From positions 184,063 to 225,390 of the forward strand of contig NZ_VJXQ01000005.1 of NCBI RefSeq assembly GCF_007655485.1: DNA of 41,328 bases, written 5' to 3'. This DNA comes from Halobellus captivus (GTDB taxonomy: Archaea > Halobacteriota > Halobacteria > Halobacteriales > Haloferacaceae). This document shows positions 39,417-41,328 of this stretch, in pieces. Within the stretch, counting starts at the first letter, position 1. Every line of letters starts with the position of its first letter. The position numbers and the translations under genes are program-made. The notes under the pieces are model-generated. The model saw only the letters and a list, made by a program, of their open reading frames with translations. It had not been told where the DNA came from and searched no databases.

Positions 39417-40763
39417 TCACCGACTGCGATCCTCTGCGTCATCGTTTCCTAGCTTGATTTCGATCGGCTCGCCAGGCTTGAGGTTCGTGCTGGCGATTAG
39501 GTCCGGATTCGGGTCGGATGACAGTTCGAACGTGTACTCTCCGAGAATCGTCGCTAGGACGACCTTCATCTCCATCCGTGCGAAGCGCATCCCGATACAG
39601 TGACGGGGCCCACCACCGAACGGGAAGTACGCGTATTCTGGCCTGTCGGTATCGCTGGCGAACCGTTCCGGACGGAACGTCTCAGGATCGTCCCACCACT
39701 TCGAGTCACGGTGGACAGCCCATTGTGGTATGACTAACGTCGTGCCAGCAGGAATATCGAAGACCTGTAGTTCTACGTCCTGCGTCGCTTCGCGGAAGAA
39801 CATATACACTGGAGGATAGAGACGCAGCGCCTCGTCGATCACGGACTCCAGTCGTTCGAGTTCCGGTAGGCTTTCTGCGGTTACGACGCCCTCACAGACC
39901 GCACCCACTTCGGCTTGGAGCTTGGCTTGCTCGTCGGGGTGCTGAGCGAGACAGAGTAATGTGTACGTCAGTCCTAGAGCCGTCGTCTCGTGCCCCGCAA
40001 AGAGGAACGTAACGATGTTATCACGGAGCTCTTCTTGGGTCAAATCGCCTGCCTCGACAAAGTTCACGAGGATCGATAGTAGGTCATCGCCACGGTTCTC
40101 GGGGTGTTGTTCCCGGCGCCGGTCGGCTAGCTCATCAACGAACGTCTGGAGTTCGGTGAGTTTCCGTCTATACCGCCGATTCGTCGGTGTTGGAATCCGG
40201 TCTGGAAGAAACGACCAGAACCGACTCGTATCGAATCGTGCGAGGATTGCATCCGATGCCTCCGAAATGACGGGGTTCTCCGTCACATCCACACCGAATA
40301 ACGTCCGACCGAGCACGTCGATCGTCGTCCTAGTCATCCAGTCGTTAACGTCGACGACCATCCCGTCGCGCCACTGTTCGACTGTCTCTGCTGCAGTAGC
40401 ACGCATCTCGGGGACGTACGTGTTCAATTGTTCGCGGTAGAACGCTGGTTGTATCTGCGTCCGCTGGTTCCGCCACTGATCGCCGCCGGTCAAAAATACC
40501 CCTTCTCCCATCGCGTCGGAGAGGTTCCGGGTTAGAACCTCACCTTTCTCGAAAGCCTCGTGGTTGTCAAGGAGCACCTGCTGGATCGCATTCGGGTGGG
40601 CGACCATACACGCGTCTGTCCCGAATACTTCGTAGCTTGCGACGCGACCATAGTCATCACGCAACTGCTCATAAAAATCGAGGATGTCACGGCTCAAATC
40701 AACAGTGTTGCCGATAACTGGCAGTCCGCGTGGACCGGGAGGATATGTCACTTTTGAACTCAT
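39417..40763 (-). CDS. Cytochrome P450
   Basis: Heme monooxygenase of 447 aa. Signature elements are the proline-rich start YPPGPRGLPVIGN, the I-helix oxygen-binding AGHETT (256-261), EALR (311-314) for ExxR, FRPERF (363-368), and the heme loop FGGGPRHCIG with ligand Cys389. It has no membrane anchor, so it is probably soluble and needs ferredoxin partners encoded elsewhere. ATG 40763 is preferred; the frame extends to a GTG at 40814 but has no domain sequence there. It is divergent from the Bat-like gene across 87 nt, in which an AT-rich element (40818-40824) could serve both directions. Confidence 0.93.
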   Translation of the reverse strand: MSSKVTYPPGPRGLPVIGNTVDLSRDILDFYEQLRDDYGRVASYEVFGTDACMVAHPNAIQQVLLDNHEAFEKGEVLTRNLSDAMGEGVFLTGGDQWRNQRTQIQPAFYREQLNTYVPEMRATAAETVEQWRDGMVVDVNDWMTRTTIDVLGRTLFGVDVTENPVISEASDAILARFDTSRFWSFLPDRIPTPTNRRYRRKLTELQTFVDELADRRREQHPENRGDDLLSILVNFVEAGDLTQEELRDNIVTFLFAGHETTALGLTYTLLCLAQHPDEQAKLQAEVGAVCEGVVTAESLPELERLESVIDEALRLYPPVYMFFREATQDVELQVFDIPAGTTLVIPQWAVHRDSKWWDDPETFRPERFASDTDRPEYAYFPFGGGPRHCIGMRFARMEMKVVLATILGEYTFELSSDPNPDLIASTNLKPGEPIEIKLGNDDAEDRSR

Positions 40764-40817
40764 ATATACGTATTTTCGATACTCGAACTCCGGCTTTCTG
40801 TCGGACACGTCCACCTC

Positions 40818-40824
40818 TATTTAA
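40818..40824. promoter_or_regulatory. Shared TATA element for the divergent P450 and Bat-like genes
   Basis: TATTTAA on the plus strand lies 27-33 nt before ATG 40851. The same bases give TTAAATA on the minus strand about 55 nt before the P450 ATG. A single AT-rich element may serve both genes. Confidence 0.4.
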
Positions 40825-40850: not shown

Positions 40851-41309
40851 ATGCGGTACCTCCAGTTACAGATCCGGATCCCCCCCGGGGCACGGCACCC
40901 AATGCACCAGTTCCTCACCGAGCAAAATTCGATTCAACGGGTGTACCTGCGGCACTGGAACTTCTCGAACCCTGAGTACGTCGCTACGTTACTCCAGATC
41001 GTCGGAAACGGTGAGAACGGACGTGAGGAATACCTCGCGGCACTCGAAGCCACAGAGTCCATCCAAGAGTTCGATGTGACACTGATCGATGACCGCAGTT
41101 TCTATGTCTACATCCGGGAGAGTGGTGAAGGATTCGCCGGTCGTCTTCGGGATCTCCTCACCGATACGGAACTGCTCATCGTGCCACCGGTCGAGTACGG
41201 CACTGACAGTGAGATGGTCTTCGAGATCGCCGGTGAACAGGACGCTCTCAAGCGTCTCGTCGCTAACCTCCCGGATCACCTCTCGGTGTCTGTCAACGGT
41301 CGTGTTTAG
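40851..41309 (+). CDS. Bacterio-opsin-activator-like sensor domain protein lacking the C-terminal HTH
   Basis: Protein of 152 aa. MRYLQLQIRIPPGARHPMHQFLTEQNSI and later segments (SIQEFDVTLIDDRSFYVYIRE, LLIVPPVEYG, MVFEIAGEQDALKRL and LPDHLSVSV) match the N-terminal part of haloarchaeal HTH_10 regulators of about 215 aa. Those normally continue into an LTxRQxEAL-type helix-turn-helix. Here a TAG follows NGRV at the point where the DNA-binding part should begin, and the window ends 19 nt later. It could be truncated by mutation, lead into a shifted frame, or be a genuine HTH-less regulator. Divergence from the P450 gene suggests control of it. Confidence 0.8.
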   Translation: MRYLQLQIRIPPGARHPMHQFLTEQNSIQRVYLRHWNFSNPEYVATLLQIVGNGENGREEYLAALEATESIQEFDVTLIDDRSFYVYIRESGEGFAGRLRDLLTDTELLIVPPVEYGTDSEMVFEIAGEQDALKRLVANLPDHLSVSVNGRV

Positions 41310-41328
41310 TTAAGGATGAAGGGTGAGG

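Follow-up and report, generated by a model that had tools for sequence, protein, structure and literature searches.

The locus at the edge of this contig raises the question of why an open reading frame (ORF) that resembles a haloarchaeal regulator stops short of its DNA-binding domain, next to a divergent cytochrome P450 gene. The window, which is the whole 41,328-nt stretch of Halobellus captivus DNA that was analysed, ends where its contig ends (C17:184063-225390, contig C17 having 225390 bases), and this end lies 19 nt past the stop codon of the ORF. Overall the evidence makes it almost certain that the ORF is the front part of a full-length HVO_0513_N/HTH_10 regulator gene that was split by an IS6-family element and is seen here at a contig edge.

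The truncated ORF carries the sensor domain of an HTH_10 regulator

The ORF at 40851-41309 on the plus strand codes for 152 aa with the C-terminus ...SVNGRV, and the preliminary description of a reading frame that ends in NGRV and has no helix-turn-helix (HTH) is borne out. Specifically, the Pfam domain HVO_0513_N (PF24278) covers residues 16-148 at 66.0-66.3 bits (cut-off 29.8), and a Pfam scan of the 152-aa ORF at E values up to 1 detected no HTH. The sensor half also matches the Pfam domain HVO_A0563_N, below the cut-off. Note that the regulator's own share of the ORF is limited to its first 149 codons, with element sequence running from 41298 onward:

40851..41297, plus strand: N-terminal 149 codons of an HVO_0513_N/HTH_10 regulator (sensor domain, PF24278), 64-79% identical to nine intact orthologues

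Two details of the earlier reading hold in part. The protein had been said to end exactly where its HTH should begin, which is roughly right, although the break falls at residue 149, about 16 residues ahead of the HTH_10 start (residue 165 in the orthologue L129). It had also been called Bat-like, a label used for HVO_0513_N/HTH_10 regulators of the 'bacterioopsin-activator HTH' type. In Bat (bacterio-opsin activator) proper, PAS/GAF domains precede HTH_10. The label therefore suits the HTH but not the sensor half, which is HVO_0513_N and has no PAS or GAF domain by Pfam.

An IS6-family element supplies the end of the ORF

The final bases of the window belong to a repeated element with the following features:

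41290..41297, no strand: left copy of the 8-bp target-site duplication CTGTCAAC, with the right copy at C17:32-39 (8/8 match)
41298..41328, plus strand: left end (31 nt) of an IS6-family insertion sequence that recurs at 10 other places in the genome, C17 stopping inside the element
41298..41311, plus strand: 14-bp terminal inverted repeat GGTCGTGTTTAGTT, with its inverse AACTAAACACGACC at C17:18-31, which gives G-R-V and the stop

The last 31 nt of the window are found at these 10 other places with at most two mismatches, and three of the places are ends of contigs (C1, C12 and C16). Because the left end of the element starts at 41298, the residues G-R-V (GGT CGT GTT) and the TAG stop (41307-41309) are the terminal repeat of the element rather than regulator sequence. 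Of the 300 nt after the stop in which an HTH was to be looked for, the window contains only 19, and these too are element sequence. The element in the gene shows two traits of the IS6 family, in that its terminal repeats are short, inverted and begin with GG, and the 8-bp duplication CTGTCAAC flanks it on both sides.

The copy in the gene is seen at its two ends only (31 nt each), the rest being an assembly gap. We found 14 distinct copies that have both ends, five in this genome (three of them with runs of N) and nine in relatives, all bounded by GGTCGTGTTTAGTT and its inverse with one base changed in some. Seven of the 14 are exactly 697 bp long, and perfect 8-bp duplications flank seven of the 14 (four of the five in this genome and three of the nine in relatives). 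An apparently intact copy at C17:51270-51966, on which the IS6 transposase call rests in place of the copy in the regulator gene, codes for a transposase that matches NF033587 at 186.8 bits (cut-off 125) and PF13610 at 27.2 bits (cut-off 27).

The haloarchaeal elements ISH14 and ISH29 are described as 696 and 697 bp long, with 211-aa transposases, repeats that start with GG and 8-bp duplications (PMC6807381). The element here resembles these members of the IS6/IS26 family in its length of 697 bp, a transposase of about 211 aa, its GG repeats and its 8-bp duplication (PMC6807381, PMC7986276). It is likened to them by these published features, and the copy in the gene differs in being known from its two ends only.

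The gap may be more complex than a single element. It could hold a cointegrate, with two element copies and a replicon or segment between them, and the gene would still be split. IS26 is described as moving via cointegrates, with single copies that bear a duplication arising by later resolution (PMC6807381), and the outer ends of a cointegrate would carry the same 8-bp duplication. Against this, four of the five full copies in this genome are single elements with a duplication. We consider a cointegrate unlikely, and the gene is broken either way.

As a separate observation, two short elements of 206 bp (C17:162746-162951) and 208 bp (C19:17315-17522) have the same terminal repeats as the IS6-family element. 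They are flanked by the 8-bp duplications TGAGGTAA and GCAACCTT, have no room for a transposase and look like IS6-derived miniature elements.

The HTH half lies at the opposite end of the contig

A search of the genome with HTH_10 returned 16 places, one of which is at the very start of the same contig (C17:85-240, 74.8 bits). The order there is the right end of the element, then CTGTCAAC, then an open frame that leads into HTH_10, and the HTH_10 frame is open from the first base of C17:

C17:40-273, in frame: HTH half of the regulator, 78 aa, HTH_10 (PF04967) at 74.7 bits (cut-off 23.1)

When one copy of the duplication is removed, the joined frame is open for 227 codons, as compared with 226-231 aa in the orthologues. 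The C-terminal HTH_10 (PF04967) is thus present in the genome but separate from the ORF of the sensor half. The locus is like other HVO_0513_N/HTH_10 regulators in that its sensor half matches PF24278 and its HTH half PF04967, and differs from them in that the halves are parted by an insertion sequence and a full-length protein is not expected. The idea that the protein had lost its HTH is correct for the ORF itself, although the cause is IS6 insertion and not deletion or evolved truncation, and the HTH half survives beyond the element. Similarly, the reading frame does continue in frame past its stop into an HTH half, but it is an insertion that lies between the two and not the sequencing error that the preliminary description had envisaged.

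Both flanks, both element ends, the duplication, an open frame on each side and the orthology of both halves are direct observations. The ancestral gene would have coded for a one-component haloarchaeal regulator of about 227 aa, with sensor and HTH_10, divergent from the P450 gene. An IS6-family element, elsewhere typically 697 bp, would then have inserted itself between codons 149 and 150 and duplicated 8 bp of target sequence. The assembly probably stops inside the element because the element is repeated in the genome, and the assembler's halt there would have left the gene halves at opposite ends of C17. The halves at both of its ends, joined by the duplication and by orthology, make it most likely that C17 is a circular replicon. 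A recent insertion is suggested by the perfect duplication and by the frames that are open on either side.

An in-frame ATG at C17:10, within the right end of the element, opens an 88-aa ORF that contains only the HTH (C17:10-276). The same place in a full copy of the element (L083) lies just ahead of the transposase stop codon and is in a different frame.

One could suppose from these reading frames that the split gave two proteins that are both expressed, a 152-aa sensor with an element-coded end and an 88-aa HTH-only protein that would act constitutively on the P450 operator. The 88-aa protein would be made by a translational restart at the ATG that closely precedes the position of the transposase stop. 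We regard such a two-protein outcome as quite improbable.

It is also very improbable that the HTH half comes from another gene and that the two ends of C17 are unrelated breakpoints at two copies of the element. Several contigs do end in the same element, and the borders of C16 match those of C17 at six of the eight duplication bases. We therefore consider the border 8-mers together, using the four left-end and four right-end contig borders that were found (a set that may be incomplete), where the 16 pairings gave three perfect matches, two at 6/8 and 11 at 2/8 or less. The perfect pairs are C17 end with C17 start, C16 with itself and C1 end with C18 end, and the element borders at C12 and C20 have no partner in this matrix of eight borders. 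The end of C17 thus matches at 8/8 only the start of C17, and C16 matches at 8/8 itself. Furthermore, the frame is kept across the junction, and the sensor half has one match only in its own genome, with no second one. Finally, among 50 loci compared with the HTH half (16 HTH_10 loci of this genome, itself included, and 34 of relatives), the nine best relatives coincide exactly with the nine sensor-half orthologues, with 68-84% identity and 107-127 bits. The next homologue reaches 55% and 76.6 bits, and the best of the other HTH_10 proteins of this genome 55.1 bits.

Two other contigs gave related observations. C16 has the same element at its start and at its end, with the matching duplication AGGTCAAC (L002, L098), and probably represents a circular replicon that was opened at a copy of the IS, and the end of C1 pairs with the end of C18 through ACCTACGG.

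The homologues scanned retain both domains

Nine distinct orthologues of the sensor half were found in 170 genomes of the family and a named genome collection, with 64-79% identity. They come from Natrinema hispanicum, Halobellus rarus, Halorubrum aquaticum, Halomicroarcula sp. SYNS111, Halobacteriales archaeon QH_8_64_26, Halorussus amylolyticus, Halolamina pelagica and genomes G087 and G041, and all nine are intact proteins of 226-231 aa with HTH_10. In the wider set of 34 distinct homologues (29 loci from the 170-genome search and five of the 10 from the named collection, the other five being duplicate records), HVO_0513_N and HTH_10 occur together in 34 of 34 at E values up to 0.001.

These data bear on the earlier proposal that the protein acts as a stand-alone ligand sensor, a naturally HTH-less form that would have evolved beside the P450 gene. 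In its favour, the 152-aa reading frame is open from a start codon onward, and the P450 neighbour is conserved. However, the survey for HTH-less forms that had been suggested yielded none among the 34 homologues scanned for domains, the nine close orthologues included. Among the matches listed, 149 others all have frames of at least 219 aa, a figure that refers to open-frame length only. The last three residues and the stop of the ORF lie within the transposon repeat, and the genome still contains the HTH half. We therefore set this proposal aside as very improbable indeed. As for a false stop produced in an intact gene by a sequencing or assembly error, the position 19 nt from the contig end is its one attraction, and its chances are negligible given that the 31 nt that begin at 41298 show no difference from the element end at C18:160180-160210 and stand beside an 8-bp duplication.

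The P450 neighbour and a conserved palindrome in the divergent promoter

The region upstream of the split regulator gene has the following features:

39417..40763, minus strand: cytochrome P450, 448 aa, divergent partner (p450 321.6 bits, haem motif FGGGPRHCIG)
40799..40812, no strand: candidate operator TGTCGGACACGTCC, with the core GGAC-AC-GTCC at 40803-40812, the core being found in 9/9 regulator-P450 pairs
40818..40823, plus strand: TATA-like tract TATTTA, 33 nt before the regulator start, which fits a leaderless transcript

The divergence of the ORF from a P450 gene, noted earlier, is confirmed. The P450 match of 321.6 bits spans profile positions 1-460 of 462 and was obtained with a 465-aa ORF that uses an upstream GTG start, whereas homologues back the ATG at 40763, which gives 448 aa and leaves 87 nt between the ATG codons of the two genes. 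A divergent P450 gene with the same haem motif is found 84-88 nt away in eight of the nine orthologous loci, the regulator of Halolamina pelagica being the one that lacks this neighbour.

The palindrome GGACNNGTCC (GGAC-NN-GTCC, its two central positions being free) is found in all nine regulator-P450 pairs (the window and eight others) at a distance of 46-49 nt from the regulator start, on its upstream side; these promoters are related and do not amount to nine independent trials. Across these pairs the arms are kept and the centre varies. The palindrome is absent upstream of the Halolamina pelagica gene, of three homologues that are less closely related (two of which are nearly identical to each other) and of 22/22 control homologues, these controls being loci from the 170-genome search for which the match, rather than a mapped promoter, defined the start. 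The 41-kb window has a single occurrence, and simple base shuffling of the 100 upstream bases in the window produced the palindrome in five of 20000 shuffles. TGTCGGACANGTCC occurs exactly once in the genome; its one-mismatch sites number four, as do those of a reversed-pattern control, and for this reason we claim no wider regulon. Taken together, the sequence comparisons make GGACNNGTCC a likely candidate operator for autoregulation and control of the P450 gene.

Directly downstream of the palindrome, T(A/T)TTTA or TTTTA is present at -34 to -31 in eight of the nine pairs. A leaderless haloarchaeal gene has its TATA box at such a position. The tract is also found at -33 to -30 in three of four homologues without a P450 neighbour and is thus not specific to the pairs. 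The AT-rich promoter element that the two genes were suggested to share is upheld to the extent that the conserved GGACNNGTCC stands next to the T(A/T)TTTA tract, but the AT-rich stretch at the P450 start is not common to the relatives in alignments judged by eye. No conserved AT-rich tract was seen by eye about 26 nt before the P450 start. Because the palindrome immediately precedes the TATA-like tract of the regulator, and with no such conserved tract ahead of the P450 gene, we would guess, with a slight leaning, that the intact regulator may be an activator rather than a repressor. If so, the P450 gene would now be poorly induced.

Consequences of the insertion and known parallels

The split regulator would be non-functional because its sensor domain is no longer part of the same protein as its DNA-binding domain, leaving the P450 gene without a dedicated regulator. 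Ligand-dependent DNA binding would be lost in the absence of the covalent link between sensor and HTH. The strain is thus probably a natural regulator knock-out.

Similar events are described in Halobacterium NRC-1, where insertion sequences with target duplication disrupt arcR and bop (PMC7193027). The likeness is that a target-duplicating insertion breaks a gene, arcR being a regulator, and the difference is that those cases involve ISH1, ISH3-2 and ISH8-2, other genes and laboratory-evolved clones (PMC7193027). As regards the present locus, nothing on it appeared among PMC titles and abstract beginnings under Halobellus insertion sequences, haloarchaeal IS6 duplications, HTH_10/Bat with P450, or HVO_0513/HTH_10.

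An HTH-less sensor would have hinted at a new mode of signalling, and this false lead is now removed: the gene is simply interrupted, an ordinary case of a transposon-split gene at the margin of a contig. Where a protein ends oddly and the contig stops only a few bases further on, it is advisable to look for insertion-sequence repeats. What the locus leaves of lasting value is a haloarchaeal regulator-P450 pair that is conserved and has a candidate operator, which can be tested in the intact relatives.

The surroundings of the pair were also compared by eye. Among the ORFs of the first 4 kb of C17 no hydrolase or second regulator was seen. In Halobellus rarus, Halorubrum aquaticum and G087, an alpha/beta-hydrolase-like gene and a second regulator-like ORF, which bears an HTH, come after the regulator. 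Halorubrum aquaticum (L090) and G087 (L091) also have an amidohydrolase-like gene on the far side of the P450 gene.
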